From Stutzerimonas kunmingensis (GTDB lineage Bacteria > Pseudomonadota > Gammaproteobacteria > Pseudomonadales > Pseudomonadaceae): DNA of 64,000 bases. Positions 41,038 through 50,991 of the stretch are shown piece by piece (the stretch's first letter is position 1; every line of letters begins with the position of its first letter). The position numbers were made by a program, and so were the translations under genes. Location of the stretch: positions 1,612,001 through 1,676,000 of the forward strand of contig NZ_CP090366.1 in assembly GCF_021432085.1 (NCBI RefSeq). The letters are read 5' to 3'. The notes under the pieces are model-generated. The model was not told the DNA's origin. It searched no databases and was given only the letters and a program-made list of their open reading frames with translations.

Positions 41038-41114
41038 GTCCCAGTAGCTCAATTGGATAGAGCATCCCCCTCCTAAGGGGAAGGTTGTGAGTTCGAACCT
41101 CGCCTGGGACGCCA
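41038..41114 (+). tRNA. tRNA-Arg(CCT), integration site
   Basis: A 77-base tRNA: acceptor GTCCCAG/CTGGGAC, anticodon loop CTCCTAA with anticodon CCT (reads AGG), CCA encoded. Bases 41067-41114 and two more (the anticodon arm to the 3' end) are repeated exactly at 50942-50991, marking integration of the element that follows. The tRNA stays intact. Confidence 0.96.
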
Positions 41115-41116
41115 TA
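41067..41116 (+). repeat. attL core (left copy of the 50-bp repeat)
   Basis: Runs from CCCCTCCTAAGG in the anticodon arm through the tRNA end to GACGCCATA. Identical in all 50 positions to 50942-50991. Confidence 0.97.
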
Positions 41117-41622: not shown

Positions 41623-43812
41623 TTATCTACCGGCTGGGCTTAGGCCGAACTTCTGCGCGATTGCTCTGGCTCGCGGGCCATCGCCGAAGATATCCGACAC
41701 GAATACGTTCACCTCTTCACGTCCGTCTGCACCGGTGCGCCGTTCTGTTGTGCCGCGCTTGCTGGCGTCCTCGATCACGTTAACGGTGGTCCCGCCGCCA
41801 GTGTTCCCGCCTTGGATATCGCTCAGGGTCTTGTCGAGCTTTGCGCTGGTTTCTGCCGTGGTGACGCGCTCGCCTTTTTCCAGCAGCCAGGTTCCTGTCT
41901 GCGGAATGGAATCGATGCCATCGTGCGCCATACCAATCGCGCCGATGTTGCTAACGATACTGGCTGTCGCTGCGGCTACAGAGGCCATTGCCGCCAAGTT
42001 TGCAGGCCAGGGGTTGGCTGCGGCCATTGCGATACCTTGCTGAATGGCTACCGCTGACTGCGCGATCGCCGCGGCCTTCTGGACCGCAAACATAGCCTTG
42101 TAGAGCCCTGACTGCTCGCCGGCAAAGGTCTTTGTCAGCCCTGCGAGGTCTCCGAAGATGCTTTCTGCCGATGCCAGCTGCGCCATCTGGCGGGCCTGTT
42201 CGATTCGTGCAAGCTCGTCTTCGTGCTGCTGCTTCAGTGCTAGCTCTTCCTCATCCCACACCGCGGCGAGGTCGGCGCGGTCCTGGCGGAACTGCTCGAG
42301 CATTTCAAGCTGCGTGTCGTACCACTCCTGCAGCTTCTCCTCAGCTTCGTCGATCTTCAGCAGTTCGCCAAACGGGCCGCCCACAGCAGCATCTAGCCCG
42401 CCGAACTCTGGCGCGTCAGTTGTTGCGGCTCCGGCGATCCGGCCGGCAACCTTCATGCGCTCATCAGGCTCGATGCCCTGCATCGCGTCGAGCACAGCCA
42501 GGCGCTCGCGCATCTGGTCGGTTAGCTGTTCCTCGTCTGTTCGCAGGTCAGCTATCAGGCGCTGGTAGGCCTCAAGCGCCTTGTTCTGCTCCTTGACCGC
42601 TTCGTCCTGGCTCTCGATGGCCTTGGTTGTGCTCGTGATAGCAGCCGGCAGAGCGCCGGGGGCCATAGTGGTTTGCAGCTCGTTAAATAGCTCGGTGAGT
42701 GTTTCCAGGCGGGTTGATCCGCCACCGCCGTTGCCCTGACCGTCGAGCTTATTCAGGAACTCGCCGTAACCCTGCGCAAGCTGGTCGAGACCAGAGACGC
42801 TATCGCTAAAGGTCTCCTTGATCTCGTCCATACTCTCGAAGGCGCGGTAGATCCGTACCGGTGGCAGGTAAGTCTCCCACCAGGAACCGCCACCCTTGGA
42901 CGCCTCGTTCAGGTCGTAGAGGTCCTTCAGTGCGCTGCCGGCAATGTGGATTGCTGCCACTGCGCCGACTGCTGCCTTGCCAACCGCTCGAAGCGATCCG
43001 GCCAGATCTTCCGAAACGGTAGCGGCAAGGCTGCCATCCACGGTGACGCCGGAAAGCCCGTCTGCGAAGTCGCCCAGGACGGGTATCAGCGCGCTGCCTA
43101 TCTGGTTTTTCAGACCTGTCGTTGCCTGGTCCATCAGGTACATCGCCGCCCGGAGCTTGTTGGCTTCCGCGATGGTCTGTTCACTCAAGATGGCGCCGGC
43201 GCGCTCGGCCTCATCGGCGAAACCCTTCATGGCTGCGCCGTTGTCCTTCAGTAGCGGAATCAGCGCAGTGGCATCAGATGCCAGACTTTCCATATAGAAC
43301 GTCATCTGCTGCTGACTTACGCCTGCCTTCTCCAGCGTGTCGACGTACAGGCCGAGTGCTTGTGGGCCTGATAGGGCGGCGAACTGGTCAGCCGTGACGC
43401 CGACTTGCGGGGCGATCTGCTCGAAAAAGTCCTTCATGCCGCCGCCGCCAGTTGCCGCGAACTCGCCGGCTTTCTCGGTCACGTCCTTCAGAATATCGGC
43501 GAGCTTGTCCTGCTCGATGCCGACGAGCTGAGCGCCGGCTGCGAACTTCTGGAACTCAGTGGACGACGAGCCAGCGATGGTCGATAGCTTGCTGATCTCA
43601 GCCGCTGCGTTCACCGTCGATACGGTGATGGCGGTGAGGCTTGCGATCGCCGCTGCAGATCCAGCGCCGAAAGCTGCGCCGACAGCCTTGGCGTTCTTCT
43701 CTACTTCCTTGCGCCACTTCTCAGAGCTGCGCTCGGCCTTATCCATACCGCTGACAAACGAGCCGGTTCGGGCTACGAGATCGAGCGTCAGGGTTCCTAA
43801 CGATTTACTCAT
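41623..43812 (-). CDS. phage tail tape-measure protein
   Basis: A 729-residue protein. The N-terminus (LGTLTLDLVARTGSFVSGMDKAE) and the long Ala-rich helical tract typical of tape-measure proteins are followed by hydrophobic stretches in the middle (AAVGAVAAIHIAGSALKDL), coiled-coil helices rich in Glu/Gln, another Ala-rich hydrophobic region (AAIAQSAVAIQQGIAMAAA), and a Gly/Thr-rich end. Such proteins set tail length in siphophages. No tail tube, tail terminator or baseplate gene accompanies it. The ATG lies inside the stop region of the preceding gene; a GTG three codons upstream is an alternative. Confidence 0.85.
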   Translation of the reverse strand: MSKSLGTLTLDLVARTGSFVSGMDKAERSSEKWRKEVEKNAKAVGAAFGAGSAAAIASLTAITVSTVNAAAEISKLSTIAGSSSTEFQKFAAGAQLVGIEQDKLADILKDVTEKAGEFAATGGGGMKDFFEQIAPQVGVTADQFAALSGPQALGLYVDTLEKAGVSQQQMTFYMESLASDATALIPLLKDNGAAMKGFADEAERAGAILSEQTIAEANKLRAAMYLMDQATTGLKNQIGSALIPVLGDFADGLSGVTVDGSLAATVSEDLAGSLRAVGKAAVGAVAAIHIAGSALKDLYDLNEASKGGGSWWETYLPPVRIYRAFESMDEIKETFSDSVSGLDQLAQGYGEFLNKLDGQGNGGGGSTRLETLTELFNELQTTMAPGALPAAITSTTKAIESQDEAVKEQNKALEAYQRLIADLRTDEEQLTDQMRERLAVLDAMQGIEPDERMKVAGRIAGAATTDAPEFGGLDAAVGGPFGELLKIDEAEEKLQEWYDTQLEMLEQFRQDRADLAAVWDEEELALKQQHEDELARIEQARQMAQLASAESIFGDLAGLTKTFAGEQSGLYKAMFAVQKAAAIAQSAVAIQQGIAMAAANPWPANLAAMASVAAATASIVSNIGAIGMAHDGIDSIPQTGTWLLEKGERVTTAETSAKLDKTLSDIQGGNTGGGTTVNVIEDASKRGTTERRTGADGREEVNVFVSDIFGDGPRARAIAQKFGLSPAGR

Positions 43813-44098
43813 TTGGTTCACCAGAATGGTTGTCGAGGGCGGTCAACGCCTCGTCGGTGAGACGCTGGCGTTCCTGTTGCTCGAACTCCAGGGCTGCGGC
43901 GTGTGCCTTGCGGTTAATTTCGGCTTTCTGTGCTTTCGTCAGCCTCGCGCGTGCGGGCGCCTGACGCGCGCACAACGGGGCGTCGTGCATGTGTTTTGGC
44001 TCGATATTTAGACGAAGATGTAAAAGAAGACTTCGGGCGCGGTCTTGAGCGGCCGAGGGTTTGAGGATCTGACTACCCCCTACCACCTGGCAGGCCAT
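43805..44098 (-). CDS. small phage protein upstream of the tape measure
   Basis: A 97-residue frame; the C-terminal half (TKAQKAEINRKAHAAALEFEQQERQRLTDEALTALD) is a charged helix. Its stop overlaps the tape-measure start and its 5' end overlaps the previous small gene. In siphophages this slot is often a tail assembly chaperone, but no sequence feature proves that. A shorter start at 43990 is possible; neither has a strong ribosome site. Confidence 0.6.
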   Translation of the reverse strand: MACQVVGGSQILKPSAAQDRARSLLLHLRLNIEPKHMHDAPLCARQAPARARLTKAQKAEINRKAHAAALEFEQQERQRLTDEALTALDNHSGEPNE

Positions 44099-44220
44099 CT
44101 CTTAAGCTCGCTGGCGGCCTTCGTTGACGGCGCGTAGTGGTACGCCTTGCCGTCCTGCTTGGGTGCCTTGGGCAGCGTCCTGGCGCGGTAGATACCGAGG
44201 AAATCGATCAGGTCTTTCAT
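44080..44220 (-). CDS. very small phage-type protein
   Basis: A 46-residue basic protein, MKDLIDFLGIYRARTLPKAP..., with TTGAGG before the ATG. It overlaps the following gene by 19 bp. The frame is open to 44319 but without a better start. Not recognised; could be spurious. Confidence 0.45.
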   Translation of the reverse strand: MKDLIDFLGIYRARTLPKAPKQDGKAYHYAPSTKAASELKRWPARW

Positions 44221-44378
44221 GGCTGCCTCAAGTGAATTAGTTGCCTGCCACCGTCTTGCGAGAATCTGAAGGATTTGACGCGCAGGCTGTCGCGGTTCTT
44301 TCATGACCTGGTGACTCACGACTATACCCAGGGCCGGACTTTCCCTTTCGGGCCGCTCCGGCAGCGGGATATCACCGT

Positions 44379-45455
44379 TTAAGCAGCGTCGACGATCTTG
44401 CGGACTGCACCGGTAGCGAACACGGCCAGGCCATAGCGGGCTTCAGCCAGAATGGTGGTTTGGTTCGTGGTGAAGTTGGTGCCGTCTTCACGGCTGGCCA
44501 TCACGGTCACGCCTTCACGGTTCAGCACAGCAACCTGGGACTGGTCGAGAATCAGCGTGGTACCGGAAGCGATCGCCGGAGTGGTCAGGACCGGGATACC
44601 CCACAGGCTCGGGCCGGCCGGGTCGCGCGGGCTGCCCAGGACATACTGCTCATCGGTAGCACGCTCGGACGCAATCACGAACCAGTCGGCCGGGTTCATC
44701 ACGATCAGGCTCGGAACCCAACCATCGGCTTCCATTGCGGCCTTCGCTTCGCCGATCTTGTCTGCCTTGGCGGTCAGAGTCGGAACGAACGCGGTAGCCT
44801 GAGGCACGAGGCCCAGGATCTTGCCGGCACCGCCTGCGCCGTTGATAAGCTCGCTTTCGAGCTTGGCGGTCACGCCGTAGCGCAGCAGGTTGTCGATCTG
44901 CATCGAGAGGGCGGGGGCGTCGGCCAGGATCTGGTTCGATGCCTTGATCCAATGCGCGATGGTGCTGATGTTGGCCTGCACGATCTGGGTTGGCAGCGAT
45001 GCCTCTGCCTTTACGTCGCCTTCCAGCACCTGTACGGCTGCAGCGTTGACGTAGCCGTTGAGCTGCATGAACTCGAACACGCCAGTATTGACGGCCAGGC
45101 TCGGCAGAGCCGACAGCAGAGACAGGGCGCGCTGCGGGTTGTTGAACAGGCCCGGTGCGCGTTCTGCCTGCACGTCATGGGTTGCGCTGGTGATGGTTGC
45201 CTTCACTTCCACGCGGCCAGTGGTAGGCGCGCCGGTCAGCATCGACTTGAATTGCGGCGATTGCACGAACTGAGCTGCGACCGACTCGTTATTGGCCTTC
45301 ACGCCGAAACCGTTCGGAATTCCGCCTTTCTGCGCCAGGTCGATCATCTGCTCGCGCAGAGTCTTGATTTCGCCGTCGACTTTTTCCAGGCGGTTGGTGG
45401 CGAACTCGTTGATCTCCGCCAGTTTGCTTTTTACCTGCTCAACATAATCAGTCAT
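44379..45455 (-). CDS. HK97-type phage major capsid protein
   Basis: A 358-residue protein. The first 45 residues form a charged coiled coil (KLAEINEFATNRLEKVDGEI) like the HK97 scaffolding delta domain; the rest has the capsid core with the E-loop region (TGVFEFMQLNGYVNAAAVQVLEGDVK), KASNQILADAPALSMQID, VMNPADWFVI and the P-domain end LILDQSQVAVLNREGVTV. The gene starts with ATGA overlapping the upstream small frame. Normally a head protease gene precedes it and portal and terminase lie further upstream; none is here. The mature shell would need a helper's protease, or none. Confidence 0.93.
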   Translation of the reverse strand: MTDYVEQVKSKLAEINEFATNRLEKVDGEIKTLREQMIDLAQKGGIPNGFGVKANNESVAAQFVQSPQFKSMLTGAPTTGRVEVKATITSATHDVQAERAPGLFNNPQRALSLLSALPSLAVNTGVFEFMQLNGYVNAAAVQVLEGDVKAEASLPTQIVQANISTIAHWIKASNQILADAPALSMQIDNLLRYGVTAKLESELINGAGGAGKILGLVPQATAFVPTLTAKADKIGEAKAAMEADGWVPSLIVMNPADWFVIASERATDEQYVLGSPRDPAGPSLWGIPVLTTPAIASGTTLILDQSQVAVLNREGVTVMASREDGTNFTTNQTTILAEARYGLAVFATGAVRKIVDAA

Positions 45456-45628
45456 TTGGTGTTCCTCGAAATTCTGTTGTGCCGCTGATGCGGCCGGATG
45501 CTCGTTGCTTCGCCGTGCCCCGAATCACTCGGCTTACGGGAAGTGCCGCCAATCAGGGGAGCTAGTCCTGCCAGGCGGTGTGAAAACCCACGAGCATCAC
45601 GCACAGGGTTTTCGATGGTTCGGTTCAT
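45452..45628 (-). CDS. candidate 58-residue coupled ORF before the capsid gene
   Basis: The frame begins at an ATGA overlap with the preceding stop and ends at an ATGA overlap with the capsid start, covering the whole gap. Product MNRTIENPVRDARGFSHRLA... is basic and unrecognised, with a Ser/His/Arg-rich end. It may be a true small protein or only a coupling frame that brings ribosomes to the capsid start (GAGGAA before the capsid ATG). Confidence 0.4.
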   Translation of the reverse strand: MNRTIENPVRDARGFSHRLAGLAPLIGGTSRKPSDSGHGEATSIRPHQRHNRISRNTK

Positions 45629-45798
45629 CGCAGATCGCTCTCCAGCAGATAGGCGAGATCGGAGACGCGAAGGTCTGACTTCGGCCCTTTAACGTGCCAC
45701 CCGCCTGGGATGCGTTCAGCGGTTGCGCGGTAGCGCTTCAGCATCTCAGCGGCTTCCTCGCGCTTCTTCTGGTTCGACGGGCTGTTGACGGCGCTCAT
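45625..45798 (-). CDS. 57-residue coupled small protein
   Basis: Product MSAVNSPSNQKKREEAAEML... is a charged helix followed by a compact segment (PGGWHVKGPKSDLRVSDLAY). AGGAG stands 11 bases before the ATG, and both ends overlap neighbours by ATGA. Not recognised. Confidence 0.6.
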   Translation of the reverse strand: MSAVNSPSNQKKREEAAEMLKRYRATAERIPGGWHVKGPKSDLRVSDLAYLLESDLR

Positions 45799-46130
45799 TT
45801 GGTTTCGAGCTCCTGTGCGGCCTGTGCGCGGTCCAGGGCTGCGAAAACCGTGCTTCGGAAATTGCCGATGGCGGCGTTCATGTCTTCTTGGGTATGGCGC
45901 GAGCGCTGGCGGGAGGCCTCAGCCTCTACCGTAATGGTCAGCCGGCGAATCTGGCTGCCAAGTTCCTCGGTCGCTTCGATCTGCTCGGCAAGCTTGGTCA
46001 GGAACAGTGCGGACGCCATCGCGCTAAGGTCGCCCCGGTCAGCGGCCTCACGGATGCTCTTCAGGTAGGCGCGCTGTTCGGGCTGGGTCGGAAGAAGTTG
46101 GCGGCCGCGTGGCGGGGTGGGTTGGTTCAT
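45795..46130 (-). CDS. 111-residue element protein, first gene of the capsid operon
   Basis: A largely helical charged protein (AYLKSIREAADRGDLSAMASALFL, then TKLAEQIEATEELGSQIRRL). No known family. It starts the minus-strand structural operon just after the repeat-rich control region and is ATGA-coupled to the 57-residue gene. Confidence 0.7.
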   Translation of the reverse strand: MNQPTPPRGRQLLPTQPEQRAYLKSIREAADRGDLSAMASALFLTKLAEQIEATEELGSQIRRLTITVEAEASRQRSRHTQEDMNAAIGNFRSTVFAALDRAQAAQELETK

Positions 46131-46313
46131 GGTTGGCCTCTATATGTAAACTATGGCGACGTGACGTCTTAATGGCTACATATTAGGGGCTTTTTTGGTG
46201 CTGGCCAGCGCTGATTTATGGCTAATCCCGCTCTGCCGTCCGGGTTCGTTCGGTTTCGTTTTGTCCTGAAAATTCCCGACGAACGGTCATTCGTTGTACG
46301 GCGAGTGAGCCGT

Positions 46314-46351
46314 TTTGGTCTCACTGAGACGGTTTGGTCTCGGTGAGATAT
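46314..46351. repeat. 19-bp tandem repeat pair
   Basis: TTTGGTCTC begins at 46314 and again at 46333; each unit also contains a TGAGA half that makes a small palindrome (GTCTCACTGAGAC in the first). Confidence 0.65.
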
Positions 46352-46377
46352 CCCCAGTTCTGGGGAATACCCTCTGC

Positions 46378-46423
46378 CTTGATAGCGGGAAACCCCCGGT
46401 CTTGATCGTGGGAAACCGCCGAT
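46378..46423. repeat. 23-bp tandem repeat pair
   Basis: CTTGAT-N3-GGGAAACC units at 46378-46400 and 46401-46423 agree in 19 of 23 positions. Head-to-tail repeats of this length look like iterons or operators. Confidence 0.7.
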
Positions 46424-46544
46424 CTGGTCCGAGTCGGACAGGTTGGTCTGTCTCGCGTGTCGAAAACGACACAGTGTGTTGATTCCTACACAGTGGAAAC
46501 CCAGCGATAACCCAGCCGGTTAGGGTTGGGTTTCAACGGTTGTT

Positions 46545-46570
46545 GAACAGGTGTTGAACGATCGCTGAAC
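46545..46570. repeat. three GAAC motifs at exact 11-bp spacing
   Basis: GAAC at 46545, 46556 and 46567, each preceded by TT or CT plus G, all on the same face of the helix. Confidence 0.55.
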
Positions 46571-46605
46571 GCTTGGTGCACGAAACGTGCTCAGTTCTGA
46601 GCGCA

Positions 46606-46631
46606 TTAAAAACCCCGCACGGCGGCGGGGT
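46606..46631 (-). terminator. rho-independent terminator ending the regulatory block
   Basis: Stem CCCCGC/GCGGGG (46613-46618, 46625-46630) with AAAAA on its left, which is a T-run in the minus direction. It lies nine bases after the 70-residue gene. Confidence 0.85.
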
Positions 46632-46639
46632 CTGGTGGG

Positions 46640-46852
46640 TCAGTGGATGCGCCGCGTATCGAGCGAGGCCAGATCCTCGTCGCTGAGCACGCCGGCAGCG
46701 AACAGGCCCTGCAGGAACCCCGACAGCATCTGGGTATCCAGCTCGCCCCGGTCGGCATCGGCCTGGTACATCTCCAACGCGGCGACCGCTCCGTCACAGT
46801 GGGTGACCATTGGCGCGATCTTGGCGAACAGTGAGCGCTCTCCCGGCTTCAT
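46640..46852 (-). CDS. 70-residue element protein
   Basis: Product MKPGERSLFAKIAPMVTHCDGAV... is acidic and helical; not recognised. ATGA overlap with the upstream gene and a terminator right after it make it the last gene of the early block. Confidence 0.65.
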   Translation of the reverse strand: MKPGERSLFAKIAPMVTHCDGAVAALEMYQADADRGELDTQMLSGFLQGLFAAGVLSDEDLASLDTRRIH

Positions 46853-47058
46853 GGTTCGTAGCGCTCCAGCAGCTTGCCAAGGCGCTTCGCGATCCCGTCC
46901 AGGGCAATGGCCCCGTTTGGAGCGATCTCGCCATCACGAAGCTGGCAGAGGTCGGAGAAGATGCCGAGCAGCATCGCCTGGCCGAATGCGTCGATCTGCG
47001 CGCCTTGGTCATCGACCACGATTCCGCAGTCAGGGTCGATATGAACGATGTTGGTCAT
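46849..47058 (-). CDS. 69-residue element protein
   Basis: Product MTNIVHIDPDCGIVVDDQGA... ; not recognised. GAGGAG stands nine bases before the ATG, chosen over an in-frame upstream start (47136) that lacks one. Coupled to the 70-residue gene. Confidence 0.65.
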   Translation of the reverse strand: MTNIVHIDPDCGIVVDDQGAQIDAFGQAMLLGIFSDLCQLRDGEIAPNGAIALDGIAKRLGKLLERYEP

Positions 47059-47128
47059 GCGTGACGCTCCTCGTTTGTAGCCACTTGCTGCCCTGAATAT
47101 CAGTAGATACCTGGCAGAATCTAAAAGG

Positions 47129-47277
47129 GTGTTCACTTTCTGAACACGTAGAACAGCGATTACGGTTCGGTTTCTGGATACGTAGGCGATAACGCCAAAC
47201 CGAACCGGATAAACCCGAACGAACAGAATTCGCTACGTGTTCACTATCTGAACCGCTACGTGTTCATTTTCTGAACA
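47129..47277. repeat. three palindromic GTGTTCA-N5-TGAACA sites
   Basis: Sites at 47129-47147 (perfect seven-bp arms), 47237-47253 and 47260-47277. The last two are part of 23-bp direct repeats starting CGCTAC at 47231 and 47254. They lie in and after the 3' end of the winged-helix gene and upstream of the 69-residue gene, so they could be a replication origin or an operator. Confidence 0.75.
47163..47207. repeat. 11-bp perfect inverted repeat between the iteron-like sites
   Basis: CGGTTCGGTTT at 47163-47173 and its complement at 47197-47207, 23 bp apart. It could form a large cruciform or bind a dimer. Confidence 0.65.
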
Positions 47278-47688
47278 GGAAGAAATCGAATTGAGCAGTG
47301 TCGGCAAAGGGCGCAGCGGTGCTCTAGTCGGGCCTACCTCAAGGTCTTTGCCGGGGCACTCGTTTACCGGAAGCCAGGACAGTGCGTAGAGCGCGCAGCG
47401 AGCGCCGTGCTTATTGAACAGACTGCTACGAGTCTGAGTGATCCAGCCTGCCGACTCGAGATCGCTGAGCGCCTTCTGTAGCGTCGACGGTGAGCCGATC
47501 CCCCATTCCCTAGCCATCGTGCGCGTGGCTGACAGATCGCCGTTGTTGCCCCCGTTGTACTGAGACATCAGCTCTTGCAGCACCACGCGGGCAACGAAGC
47601 TCAATGCTCGATGCCCGGGCGATTGAACGAGGCGCCGCTCCAGCCGGAAGAAAGGTGGCCCCGATTTGGGCTTTGATTTGCCTGCCAT
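47233..47688 (-). CDS. winged-helix protein, possible replication initiator or regulator
   Basis: A 151-residue protein. PPFFRLERRLVQSPGHRALS, LQELMSQYNGGNNGDLSATRTMA and the HTH-like GSPSTLQKALSDLESAGWI resemble a family of phage and plasmid winged-helix proteins, some annotated as replication proteins. The C-terminal 15 residues are encoded by two of the palindromic repeats, so the gene and the repeats are physically joined. An upstream TTG at 47703 is an alternative start. Confidence 0.7.
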   Translation of the reverse strand: MAGKSKPKSGPPFFRLERRLVQSPGHRALSFVARVVLQELMSQYNGGNNGDLSATRTMAREWGIGSPSTLQKALSDLESAGWITQTRSSLFNKHGARCALYALSWLPVNECPGKDLEVGPTRAPLRPLPTLLNSISSCSENEHVAVQIVNT

Positions 47689-47742
47689 ATCGAACTCGCG
47701 CAATGGCTGGCAGGGCAGGGCGCCCCGCCAGCGTTATGGCCG

Positions 47743-47982
47743 CTAGGCCGCGGCTTCTTGCATCAGGACGTATTGCCCCACGCGGTGCGGTGGCCGTCCT
47801 GCTTCGGTGGCCTGATAGGCCCATTGTGTGCGGATATCAAAGCCACGACGACGCAGACGGCGGACCGTTGACGGCGGGTGGACGATATCCAGGTCGTTGG
47901 CTGCCTCGATGGTTGTCACTGGATGAATTCTCAGTGCTTCCAGAAGGCGCCGGTCTTGCTCGGTTGCGGAGTGTGATGGCAT
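47743..47982 (-). CDS. helix-turn-helix phage-type protein
   Basis: A 79-residue protein: DRRLLEALRIHPVTTIEAANDLDIVHPPSTVRRLRRRGFDI is a winged HTH of a type common in phages and islands. GAGG lies about eight bases before the ATG. Likely DNA-binding; role not known. Confidence 0.75.
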   Translation of the reverse strand: MPSHSATEQDRRLLEALRIHPVTTIEAANDLDIVHPPSTVRRLRRRGFDIRTQWAYQATEAGRPPHRVGQYVLMQEAAA

Positions 47983-48068: not shown

Positions 48069-48314
48069 TCATGTCCATTCGTCCCTGTCCGGGGCGGCGT
48101 AGCCCCATGCTTCGTTGGCGGCCGCGTAGATCATCGAGCCCAGGGCGGCCACCGCATACGCAAGGCTGCTCCGGTCGTCGTCGCTTAGGTGATGCTCCGA
48201 TTCGTCGGCACCCAATAGCCGGCCGATACCTTCCAACCCTTTGCCGGCGTTCGTCAGCACCGCGGTGTTGCGCTGGATCATCTCGAACGCCTCGCGATCA
48301 GTGATGCGGCTCAT
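48069..48314 (-). CDS. 81-residue element protein
   Basis: Product MSRITDREAFEMIQRNTAVL... has an acidic middle and an Ala-rich end (SLAYAVAALGSMIYAAANEA). GGAGG eight bases before ATG; coupled by ATGA to the upstream gene. Unknown function. Confidence 0.7.
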   Translation of the reverse strand: MSRITDREAFEMIQRNTAVLTNAGKGLEGIGRLLGADESEHHLSDDDRSSLAYAVAALGSMIYAAANEAWGYAAPDRDEWT

Positions 48315-48550
48315 TGCAGCCCCTCCACACGCTTGATGCGCTCCGCTTCGCAATCCATGTGGTTGCTCAGATCGTCGGCGAGGTACTGCGCCAGGTTGGC
48401 GAGGTCCAGCGCATCAGCGCCATTCTTGTGCTTGCAGTTGAGCTGGATCGCTCGTGCTATCGAGCCAAGCCATTTGCCGTGCTCGCGCGCCAGGGTGGCC
48501 AAGTCGTAAGCGTCGATCGCATCCACTTTCTCAGTTGTTGCAGTGTTCAT
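48311..48550 (-). CDS. 79-residue element protein
   Basis: Product MNTATTEKVDAIDAYDLATL... , helical, unknown. GGAG before the ATG; ATGA overlaps on both sides. Confidence 0.7.
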   Translation of the reverse strand: MNTATTEKVDAIDAYDLATLAREHGKWLGSIARAIQLNCKHKNGADALDLANLAQYLADDLSNHMDCEAERIKRVEGLQ

Positions 48551-48702
48551 TTCGCTAGCTCCAGTCGAGAGGCGCCAAGGTGGCGCAGGTGTTCCAAGTC
48601 AATCAGTCGGGTATTGGTTGGCAGTGCCAGCCACCCAATGACTTTGCCGCTGCGGTCGATTAGATGGAAGGCCCGTTCCAGGGCCTCAAAATGGGCGTTC
48701 AT
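48547..48702 (-). CDS. 51-residue element protein
   Basis: Product MNAHFEALERAFHLIDRSGK... with VIGWLALPTNTRLIDLEHLR. Too short for most gene finders, but it fills the gap between two ATGA overlaps exactly, which argues for real translation. Unknown function. Confidence 0.65.
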   Translation of the reverse strand: MNAHFEALERAFHLIDRSGKVIGWLALPTNTRLIDLEHLRHLGASRLELAK

Positions 48703-48899
48703 CGTGCGTTGTCCTTCGCCATACGGTTCAGCCAGGCGCGCAGTTCCTCAACAAGGATCAGGCGACGCTTGCCTGCCTTGAACGACACAAGTTCGCCTCG
48801 GGCGATGGCTTCATAGATAGCGGATCGGGTGGTGCCGGATGCGCGGGCGGCCTCTTCAGGACCGACGGCGAGGGGTTGCAGCGTTGCGAGTTGGGACAT
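48699..48899 (-). CDS. AlpA/excisionase-type MerR-like DNA-binding protein
   Basis: A 66-residue protein with PLAVGPEEAARASGTTRSAIY followed by the wing RGELVSFKAGKRRLILVEELRAWL, the pattern of AlpA-like or excisionase-like winged helices. Such proteins switch on integrase/excision in islands and satellites. It is the first gene of the early minus-strand operon, with GGAG eight bases before the ATG. Confidence 0.82.
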   Translation of the reverse strand: MSQLATLQPLAVGPEEAARASGTTRSAIYEAIARGELVSFKAGKRRLILVEELRAWLNRMAKDNAR

Positions 48900-48987: not shown

Positions 48988-49044
48988 GCACAAGTTGATA
49001 CTTTCGTTAGCGTCGCTTACTGTGGCGCCATTAAGGAGACGGTG

Positions 49045-49611
49045 ATGGCTAACAGATCAAAGAAGACAGTGCTATCGGTCAGGGTGTCGGGCTACGCCAA
49101 GTCATGCTTGGACGTGCTCGCTGCGATCGAGCAGAAGAGCCTTCCGGACACTATTGAGGGTTTGCTTGAGCACGCTTTCGACCGAAAGTCGATCGCGCCG
49201 CCGGCTTTCATCCGGCAAGACAAGCTCACAAAACAAGGCGAGCCGCGGATTTTGCTGGGCGAGCTTATGCGAGCCCTTTGGACGGAGGATCAGGAGCTTT
49301 TCAAGCTAAGGCTGCATTTGATTGAGCCTGCAGCGCTCAATGACCGAGACCAGGTCGTTACCGGAACAGTATTCAAGAATCTCGACATCTTCGCGGGTGA
49401 CGACGATCTGTTCGACAAGAAGGCCCGTGAGCTGGTTGTTGAAAGCCCGGCAATTCCTAAGCTCAGCCTTTCGCTGGTCAGCATTTACTGGCCTTTGTTG
49501 AATGACTACGCGCGCTTCCTGGCGAACAATTCGCTCAATCTCAGCTTCCCCGACTATGTCGATATGCTTCGCAAAAGCGGTGAGCTCGACGAAATTTTCG
49601 AGGTGCTCTAG
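49045..49611 (+). CDS. divergent element gene of unknown function
   Basis: A 188-residue protein, the only plus-strand gene in the element. The N-terminus (KKTVLSVRVSGYAKSCLDVLAAIEQKSLPDTIEGLLEHAF) is reminiscent of a ribbon-helix-helix DNA-binding unit; the rest is helical with no recognised domain. AAGGAG precedes the ATG at 49045. Divergence from the AlpA-like gene suggests a repressor that keeps the element silent, or a cargo gene. Its stop overlaps the integrase stop by four bases. Confidence 0.75.
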   Translation: MANRSKKTVLSVRVSGYAKSCLDVLAAIEQKSLPDTIEGLLEHAFDRKSIAPPAFIRQDKLTKQGEPRILLGELMRALWTEDQELFKLRLHLIEPAALNDRDQVVTGTVFKNLDIFAGDDDLFDKKARELVVESPAIPKLSLSLVSIYWPLLNDYARFLANNSLNLSFPDYVDMLRKSGELDEIFEVL

Positions 49612-50819
49612 AGAAGATCCACTGCAGCCGCCTTGCTGTCTGGTGCAAGGTGGGCGTAGCGCAGCGTCATCTTGATATCAGCGTGCCCCAGCAGATCGCG
49701 CACCGTGTTGAGCGGTGCGCCAGCCATCACCAGCCGCGACGCGAAGTCGTGGCGCATATCGTGCCAGCGGAAGCCGACGATGCCGGCGTTCTTCAGCAGC
49801 TCCAGCCAGGCGGTTTTCACGTCTGTCATGGGCTTGTCCTTCTCGCCGGGGAAGATGTAACCGGTGCCGCTCGCCTGGTCGTACCATCCCTGCAGCGTGG
49901 CCAGCGCTTCGGCGTTGAGCGGGATATGCCGTGTCTCGCTGGTCTTCGCGCCTTCACCGGCTACCGTCAGGGTTTTGGCTTGCAGGTTGGCGTGATGCCA
50001 GCGCAAATTGAACAGCTCGCCGCGCCTCATTCCGGTATTGAGCGATAGCAGAACCATCGGCTTCAGGTGATCGGCGAAGGGGAGGGTGCGAAGGTCTGGC
50101 AAAGCCCCTCTGCCGCGTTTTGCGCGCCATTCGTTTGCGCTGTCACGCTCTGCCCTGATTCGCTCCTCGCGTGCGTCTAGCGCGTCCCTGAGGGCTTTGG
50201 CTTCGTCTTTCGAAAGGTAGCGGATGCGGCCGATCGAATCGACCTTCAGTTGCTTGACCTTCTCCAGGGGCGACGCGGGCAGGTAGGCCCATTCCACGGC
50301 GCGGCTGAATACTCCGCTGATGCTGCCCATCTTGCGGTTGGCGGTGGACGGCTTGTTGCCGCCGTTGAGCCAGGCGGTGCGGATCTGCTCCAGATCGCGG
50401 CCGGTGATCTCATCGAGGCGACGGTGCATGATTGGCTCGAAGCTAGTGTCGAGCGTGTGCAGAGTCTTCTCGTGGCCTTTGTGGTGGGCCTTGAACCACG
50501 GCATATAGTGGTCATCGATGAAGCTGCGCAGGGTAGGGGTTGTGGCACCGCGGCGGCCTTGTGTGACGGCCAGCGGCTCGCCGTGCTTGCGGGCCTCGTT
50601 GAGGTATTGCAGCGCCTCCTCGCGGGCCTGCTCCAGCGTCAGGATGCCGACACGGCCGAGCGCCTTTTTGCGACCACGCGCCCAGGTCACAACGTAGGAC
50701 TTCGCCCCGGCCGCCGTCACGCGCACGAACAGGCCGGGCACGGTGGTGTCGTGGACTTCGTATTCCTTGCCGGTGACTTCCAGGCTGTTCAGTCGGCGCG
50801 CCGTCAGCTTCTCTCGCAC
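49608..50819 (-). CDS. int: tyrosine-type site-specific integrase
   Basis: A 403-residue recombinase. N-terminal arm-binding domain (EVHDTTVPGLFVRVTAAGAKSY, a DUF4102-like fold), core-binding SAM-like domain, and catalytic domain with Arg in NTGMRRGEL, the HxxR box in HDMRHDFASR, His in LLGHADI and the tyrosine in TLRYAHL. The GTG at 50819 has GGGGA just upstream; an in-frame TTG at 50849 is possible but lies in the arm-site repeat. It lies next to attR and points into the element. Confidence 0.93.
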   Translation of the reverse strand: MREKLTARRLNSLEVTGKEYEVHDTTVPGLFVRVTAAGAKSYVVTWARGRKKALGRVGILTLEQAREEALQYLNEARKHGEPLAVTQGRRGATTPTLRSFIDDHYMPWFKAHHKGHEKTLHTLDTSFEPIMHRRLDEITGRDLEQIRTAWLNGGNKPSTANRKMGSISGVFSRAVEWAYLPASPLEKVKQLKVDSIGRIRYLSKDEAKALRDALDAREERIRAERDSANEWRAKRGRGALPDLRTLPFADHLKPMVLLSLNTGMRRGELFNLRWHHANLQAKTLTVAGEGAKTSETRHIPLNAEALATLQGWYDQASGTGYIFPGEKDKPMTDVKTAWLELLKNAGIVGFRWHDMRHDFASRLVMAGAPLNTVRDLLGHADIKMTLRYAHLAPDSKAAAVDLL

Positions 50820-50829
50820 GTTGTCCCCG

Positions 50830-50850
50830 TGGGTGCAGTGTGGGTGCAAA
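50830..50850 (+). repeat. candidate integrase arm-type site, right
   Basis: Same 21-bp motif as 41164-41184 with one change, two GGGTGCA copies eleven bp apart, immediately upstream of the integrase start and so also placed to allow autoregulation. Confidence 0.7.
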
Positions 50851-50941: not shown

Positions 50942-50991
50942 CCCCTCCTAAGGGGAAGGTTGTGAGTTCGAACCTCGCCTGGGACGCCATA
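50942..50991 (+). repeat. attR core (right copy of the 50-bp repeat)
   Basis: Exact copy of 41067-41116; only the 3' half of the tRNA is present, so no tRNA is formed here. It marks the right end of the element; flagellar genes resume after it. Confidence 0.97.

Follow-up and report, generated by a model that had tools for sequence, protein, structure and literature searches.

The 64,000-nucleotide stretch of the Stutzerimonas kunmingensis chromosome analysed here, called the window, contains a 9,875 bp unit between two exact 50-bp direct repeats. This element is probably a phage satellite, in which a virion cassette with a major capsid protein (MCP) and a tape measure protein (TMP) is carried on a chassis common to capsid-forming elements of the phage-inducible chromosomal island type (cf-PICIs). 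What is said below on induction, particle make-up, helper identity, packaging signal and capsid size is inferred from the sequence. The gene order is integrase, AlpA-like helix-turn-helix (HTH) protein, small genes, O-like replication protein (Rep), a 509-bp non-coding region and o111-o57-o58-MCP-o79c-o97-TMP-o101, with 17 of the 18 defined genes on the minus strand and a 189-aa gene divergent (Table 1). Nine relatives were fetched for an empty-site comparison; in the two that were judged (L283 and L284, the other seven being more diverged), the flanks are 98-99% identical and contiguous with exactly one 50-bp copy.

The MCP is a complete HK97-type protein of 358 aa, matching PF05065 (E 3.3e-33) and the PHROG major head annotation (E 3.1e-41; best family phrog_10). 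Its structure model, with a mean pLDDT of only 72.6, is nearest to HK97 prohead I and has a predicted N-terminal helix at residues 3-43. The counterparts of the HK97 cross-link residues K169, N356 and E363 are K149, N331 and E338 in the element, and each position is kept in 33 of 34 satellite MCP rows, the odd row being truncated. The TMP is full length, with 732 aa from a GTG start or 729 aa from the next ATG, and belongs to phrog_2854. Both frames are open, in agreement with the earlier note on this DNA, which had described an intact HK97-type capsid gene and an intact 729-residue tape measure. That note had also described the element as free of terminase, portal, protease, tail-tube and lysis genes. 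This was borne out by a PHROG scan of all 18 element proteins, which gave no terminase, portal, protease, connector, tail-tube or lysis family, and by tblastn with D3 and HK97 proteins, in which only the MCP and TMP matched in the element; the same queries recover most of the set in full phages. The small genes o79c and o97, which precede the TMP and were considered as candidate tail chaperones, matched no PHROG family and no D3 or HK97 query.

The MCP belongs to a satellite clade separate from the phage MCPs sampled. A genome scan gave 35 loci, 31 of which (L100-L130) have an MCP at least 35% identical to that of the element, the others being L131-L134. Near-copies exist among the 31 (e.g., L107/L110, L123/L124, L125/L126), and L226, L227 and L230-L233 are further copies of loci already counted. 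The IMG/VR sample comprised 64 of 80 loci (L136-L199, MCP 29-38% identical; L200-L214 left out). When 31 satellite MCPs were placed in a tree with 27 from phages (L114, L127 and L130 being omitted for their short or partial MCP), the satellites fell on one side of a branch with an SH-aLRT of 100 and a stem of 1.09. With D3 and HK97 queries, the large terminase (TerL) and portal were not matched in 30 of the 31 loci over fetched stretches of up to 10 kb either side; in the remaining one, L120, matches lie 6-9 kb from the MCP, inside a D3-like prophage. The same queries found TerL and/or portal in all four of L131-L134 and in 60 of the 64 IMG/VR loci (exceptions L157, L168, L176 and L184). Pfam gave no large terminase or portal in 39 larger open reading frames (ORFs) from 17 of the 31 loci. 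A small terminase (TerS) is present in L102 and L104, and L102, L114 and L127 lie on short contigs. Among 957 MCP matches in 50,697 phage records, identity is 31.6-37.8% for the best-ranked 30, and all 957 stay below 60%. MCP matches at E 1e-50 or better occur in 18 of 398 Pseudomonadaceae genomes surveyed.

Within this clade the TMP is a minority trait. A D3-type TMP match was found in six of the 31 genome loci (L100, L103, L105, L109, L128 and L129), a gpI match takes its place in nine, and an HK97-type protease match stands beside the MCP in eight, assigned to the S78 family by Pfam in L103 and L105. Elements with MCP and TMP and without packaging genes recur at tRNA-Arg, -Thr, -Leu and -Val genes (L100, L103, L109, L128 and L129), which is the conserved layout that the earlier note had named as support for a satellite. 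As a side observation, the D3-like prophage near L120 (17122-21107; portal 72% identical to D3) lies a few kb from the satellite in Pseudomonas capeferrum and may form a helper pair with it. L184, a 10,364-bp viral contig with a 34% identical MCP, TerS and protease and no TerL or portal match, may be a satellite with a different capsid lineage.

Purifying selection acts on both MCP and TMP. Against L014, L100 and L103, respectively, dN/dS is 0.06, 0.25 and 0.28 for the MCP and 0.18, 0.34 and 0.26 for the TMP, so that the comparison proposed in the earlier note gave low values for both genes; values for the L071 TMP and the L227 integrase were left out as artefacts of reading past a break. The two parts of the TMP have different relatives. 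Over residues 1-290, the TMPs of the window, L100, L103 and L105 group in one satellite clade (support 95). No such clade appears for residues 390-732, where L100 groups with prophage L228 (support 100) and the shortest paths from the window TMP lead to the phages L020 and L023, with 81% identity to L020. The C-terminal half is thus mosaic with TMPs of D3-like phages. The TMPs of L109, L128 and L129 fall elsewhere among phages, and the TMP was therefore probably captured more than once. The C-terminus of a TMP faces the tail tip, and the mosaicism is consistent with a ruler that adapts its tip-side end to the tails of helpers. The first 47 listed TMP relatives, at least 84% identical, all measure 702-734 aa.

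Attachment (att) ends were defined for the window element and 16 of the 31 loci from genomes, in tRNA-Arg, -Phe, -Thr, -Leu, -Val and -Met genes, the sizes of L119 and L125 being based on 14-bp matches. They fall into two classes of 9.18-10.25 kb (n=9) and 13.40-14.30 kb (n=8), about 9.6 and 13.8 kb, with none between; the gap corresponds to 1 in 100,000 draws in a test that ignores kinship. The count excludes L101 (25-bp repeat, 9.5 kb, no tRNA), L104 (9.5 kb) and L122 (13.1 kb), both with mismatches at 6 of 22 end positions, and L120 (26-bp repeat, no tRNA, 8.9 kb), which has a large-class MCP and would break the size pattern. All eight large elements belong to one MCP subclade, whose sister L121 measures 9.6 kb. 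Within a class, size holds although gene content varies (TMP, gpI, helicases, defence-like genes). This constancy fits the prediction of a capsid limit, and common ancestry may also explain it. HK97 has a T=7 shell and a 39.7 kb genome, from which volume scaling gives a T-number for a genome size; the two classes would suit T=3 and T=4 shells on this basis. Contigs below 40 kb hold 31 of the first 47 listed TMP relatives, and 12 of these 31 are 9.9-10.5 kb long, which suggests that the contigs of about unit length are excised or packaged unit genomes. No terminal repeats were found in 13 viral contigs tested, of which L135 alone belongs to the MCP clade.

Two further observations concern the size classes. 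In the 13.8-kb lineage (L115-L120, L123, L125, L126), a second tyrosine-recombinase-like gene lies directly upstream of the MCP, and seven of these nine loci have a gpI match. The 9,865 bp circular 'plasmid' pPSEST02 of S. stutzeri RCH2 (L295, NC_019938.1) encodes AlpA, VapE-domain and TerS genes, has a cassette common to L247/L259, and resembles an episomal satellite in the size class of the element.

A PICI-type chassis consists of an integrase, an AlpA-like regulator, a replication gene and att sites in a tRNA gene. All are found in the element, which shares this chassis at the DNA level with cf-PICI-type elements at tRNA-Arg. In the same tRNA site, the integrase-AlpA-Rep chassis carries different virion cassettes, including cf-PICI head and packaging sets. 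A 27-bp form of the non-coding motif (Table 1) occurs in 13 stretches of the viral collection, 11 of which have the chassis genes of the window; L245 and L250 belong to the 13.8-kb lineage. The cf-PICI set of capsid, protease, portal, HNH, TerS and TerL stands on the chassis in L242, L243, L248, L249, L255, L258 and L262, accompanied by an adaptor or closure gene on contigs that continue further, and L251 carries it as far as the contig end. TerS and TerL queries match L248, L249 and L255, and HNH was found by Pfam in L248. L246 has a protease-MCP-o79c-TerS-TMP cassette with a TMP of another family, and L247 has a phrog_684 virion protein. Another cassette (G028, L292-L294) pairs a 284-aa protein, coiled-coil-rich by eye, with a TMP; G028 and L292 add a phrog_53 protease, and G028 measures 18.8 kb between att copies. 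No TMP match was obtained in cassettes with TerL and portal; cassettes without these two have a TMP wherever the stretch is long enough, except L247/L259.

The junction between chassis and cassette varies little. On the chassis side, DNA similarity to the window ends at 46,299-46,325 in L103, L247, L248, L249, L253 and L292; the corresponding positions are 46,275 for L246 and 46,300 for G028. L255 and L258 differ, with the end at 46,603. Aligned chassis blocks are 76-94% identical to L248, L249, L255 and L258. L100 is collinear with the window over most of its length, and most chassis genes of L103 are 87-98% identical to those of the window (Rep 46%, o95 69%), compared with 53% for the MCP. 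The architecture is more modular than the earlier note had supposed. A wider reading, offered tentatively and with rather less than even confidence, is that Pseudomonadaceae satellites are a modular platform, in which one integration-replication chassis swaps whole virion cassettes at a near-fixed hinge. Packaging-less cassettes would then pair a head-size determinant (a capsid of the satellite clade, or a scaffold-like protein with a protease) with a TMP whose helper-facing end recombines from current helpers, and the capsid lineage would fix genome size at about 9.6 or 13.8 kb, which may correspond to T=3 and T=4. If the capsid lineage sets genome size and the TMP end tracks the helper, a cassette swap would therefore change both helper and particle size.

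In L237/L241, with 18.8 kb between att copies, the chassis carries the 284-aa coiled-coil-rich protein, the phrog_53 protease and a 656-aa TMP, besides some further kilobases of other genes, a stretch in which an HsdR-like gene is found in the related L253.

Several observations weigh against a satellite that contributes its own capsid and tape measure to virions. The TMP of the sister copy L014/L071 is broken by a phage-like insertion, the L103 integrase is truncated, and o58 and o97 have dN/dS above 1 against L100, with few changes. MCP identity alone fails to split satellites (at least 35%) from phages (up to 38%), although the tree does so, and phage MCPs also keep the cross-link residues (71-72 of 72 rows). 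The tblastn searches with D3 and HK97 proteins can miss dissimilar portals or terminases. No packaging site or TerS was found in the element, whereas the relatives L102, L104 and L246 carry TerS. The 10-kb peak appears weakly in the MCP list, with 5 of 35 contigs (first 40 MCP relatives listed). Finally, no other D3-like TMP was found in the same genome, whose other TMP belongs to an HK97-like prophage.

The insertion and the truncated integrase, together with the small number of structural genes, are what a decaying remnant of a prophage that lost most of its genes might display. Such decay is nevertheless very improbable, as no full prophage with a clade MCP was found among the 35 genome loci, the elements recur in tRNA sites, dN/dS is low, an empty site exists and the first 47 listed TMP relatives all keep a length of 702-734 aa. 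Sizes are also near-constant despite differing content, and a conserved chassis carries exchangeable cassettes. The earlier note had favoured a satellite over a decayed prophage and had named two signs of decay. The one, homologous full prophages, was not encountered in any of the 31 clade loci. The other, inactivating mutations in sister copies, was encountered to a minor extent in the two cases above.

The best inference from the gene content is that the element makes its own shell and ruler and borrows the rest from a helper. After infection by or induction of a D3-like siphophage, the likely helper because of the TMP kinship, the element would excise and replicate. The satellite MCP would assemble into a small shell of HK97 type on the helper portal and with the helper protease, either by itself or together with helper capsid protein, the latter being the case for Ccm of the Staphylococcus aureus pathogenicity island (SaPI) SaPIbov5. 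The helper terminase would then package about 9.9 kb, and the helper tail tube would polymerise round the satellite TMP, whose C-terminal half would fit the helper tail tip, giving a chimeric tail. Such a small own or mixed shell with a hybrid tail on helper parts is the likeliest arrangement because the element combines satellite-TMP and satellite-capsid precedents on a cf-PICI-type chassis. In the same genome, a second portal match lies at 4.39 Mb. About 25 kb before the window, at G000:C1 ~1563600-1587000 (L234, L235), the same chromosome carries a siphoprophage of HK97-like type, with matches to TerL, portal and tail genes of the M-L-K-I-J type.

The MCP could instead act by redirection only, joining the helper lattice (e.g., as pentamers) and shrinking helper capsids with no shell of its own, the TMP being a secondary gain. 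This is a substantial possibility, though it falls somewhat short of an even chance. According to PMC8569155, Ccm is a capsid-protein homologue that alone forms no capsid, with no protease identified in the SaPI; the element likewise has none, and identity between its MCP and those of the D3-like phages looked at is 26-34%. The protease matches beside eight of the 31 related MCPs fit self-made shells, while the full cross-link triad is compatible with either model. MCP and TMP might also poison helper assembly, protecting host or satellite instead of entering virions, as interference with tail or virion assembly is known for prophage or satellite genes (PMC11364771, PMC10884400). This is unlikely, as the proteins look like working parts, being full length, with the cross-link residues conserved and with TMP C-termini that follow phage tails, and TMPs of PICI-like elements (PLEs) enter virions (PMC12987554).

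The claim of the earlier note that known capsid-forming satellites are without a tape measure is out of date. PMC12987554 (2026) demonstrates chimeric tails that contain PLE TMPs and names putative tmp genes of cf-PICIs; in Vibrio cholerae, the TMP of PLE11 replaces that of the helper in the tail, as seen by transmission electron microscopy, western blot and mass spectrometry. PLE11 and the element both encode their own TMP. PLE11 also encodes a putative tail chaperone and baseplate hub and uses the ICP1 capsid protein, whereas the element has a siphophage-type TMP and its own MCP. SaPIbov5 resembles the element in its capsid-protein homologue (24% identical to the helper capsid protein, with a removable N-terminal domain) and in having no protease identified in the island; it is staphylococcal, its helper phi12 has prolate heads, and no SaPI-encoded TMP is reported in the excerpts (PMC8569155). 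The cf-PICI capsid set is defined in PMC10690885 as MCP, maturation protease, portal and head-tail connectors. Of this set the element has the MCP alone, and none of the packaging set (TerS, TerL, HNH) was found in it. Both have an HK97-type capsid protein of their own and presumably use helper tails, but the MCP is phrog_10 in the element and phrog_617 in the cf-PICI-type L248, and the cf-PICI cassettes on the same chassis gave no TMP match. AH14b, a proposed satellite of a Pseudomonas prophage, has integrase and AlpA-like genes as the element does, and a tail assembly protein I homologue as do L113, L115 and other relatives. According to PMC4936722, it differs in its size of 16.8 kb and in the trimer packaging suggested for it, and its authors found no head or tail structural set.

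Each half of the cassette thus has a precedent, Ccm for the capsid and the PLE and putative cf-PICI TMPs for the tape measure, and the element combines both. Judged by title, abstract start or passages, no paper listed in full-text searches, which reached few subscription papers and no preprints, describes satellites with MCP and TMP and without packaging genes. If the proposed mechanism is right, the element would replace both size-setting virion parts, shell and tail ruler, and take packaging and all else from its helper. Tail manipulation, shown for Vibrio PLEs in 2026, would then extend to siphophage satellites in the Pseudomonadaceae. Chassis that are close relatives but carry different cassettes form natural sets for capsid size, tail-tape specificity and helper range, which can therefore be tested by cassette comparison.

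Table 1. Features of the element and its integration site (window coordinates).
Feature	Position	Strand	Basis
tRNA-Arg(cct), integration target	41038..41114	+	ARAGORN
att core copy 1, 50 bp, in 3' part of tRNA	41067..41116	.	exact direct repeat; single copy in empty sites
o101, small gene after TMP, 101 aa	41314..41619	-	65% in L103, 98% in L071; no PHROG match
TMP	41623..43821	-	phrog_2854 E 1.1e-157; trees; dN/dS
o97, small gene, overlaps TMP and o79c	43805..44098	-	no PHROG match
o79c, small gene, adjoins MCP in L100, L103, L014, L246	44080..44319	-	no PHROG match
HK97-type MCP, satellite clade	44379..45455	-	Pfam, PHROG, tree, structure model
o58, small gene	45452..45628	-	93-94% in L100/L014
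o57, small gene	45625..45798	-	ORF list and comparison with relatives
o111, first cassette gene; N-terminal part recurs near head of other cassettes	45795..46130	-	comparison with relatives
Non-coding region with repeats; cassette junction near 46300; 40-bp motif 46457-46496 common to other satellites	46131..46639	.	
o70, chassis gene	46640..46852	-	85-94% across cassette types
o95, chassis gene	46849..47136	-	63-95% across cassette types
Replication-initiation-like HTH protein, weak O-like matches	47233..47703	-	phrog_270 E 6.7e-4
o79, chassis gene	47743..47982	-	common to relatives
o94, chassis gene	48069..48353	-	common to relatives
o79b, chassis gene	48311..48550	-	common to relatives
o51, chassis gene	48547..48702	-	common to relatives
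AlpA-like HTH regulator/excisionase	48699..48899	-	HTH_17 E 4.7e-9; phrog_66 E 6.2e-6
Divergent gene, 189 aa, in regulator position (putative role)	49042..49611	+	93-96% in L246/L255; no Pfam/PHROG family
Tyrosine integrase	49608..50849	-	PF00589 E 2.8e-31
att core copy 2	50942..50991	.	exact direct repeat

The non-coding region was considered as a packaging (cos) site and rejected as such, as its 40-bp motif is also present in cf-PICI-type elements with their own terminase. The motif is for this reason more likely an origin or regulatory site, and the region as a whole is probably origin-like or regulatory. No helper cos was identified. Short, non-significant matches of the region (E 0.2-2) to D3 replication genes and to those of further Pseudomonas phages point in the same direction as the motif. 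A last observation concerns the insertion in the sister TMP, at about 8167 in L014 and 9994 in L071 (IMG/VR 2546826726_000002). The insert of about 39 kb starts with TGT and ends with ACA. Together with the short duplication of the target, these ends are what a Mu-like transposable phage would leave.

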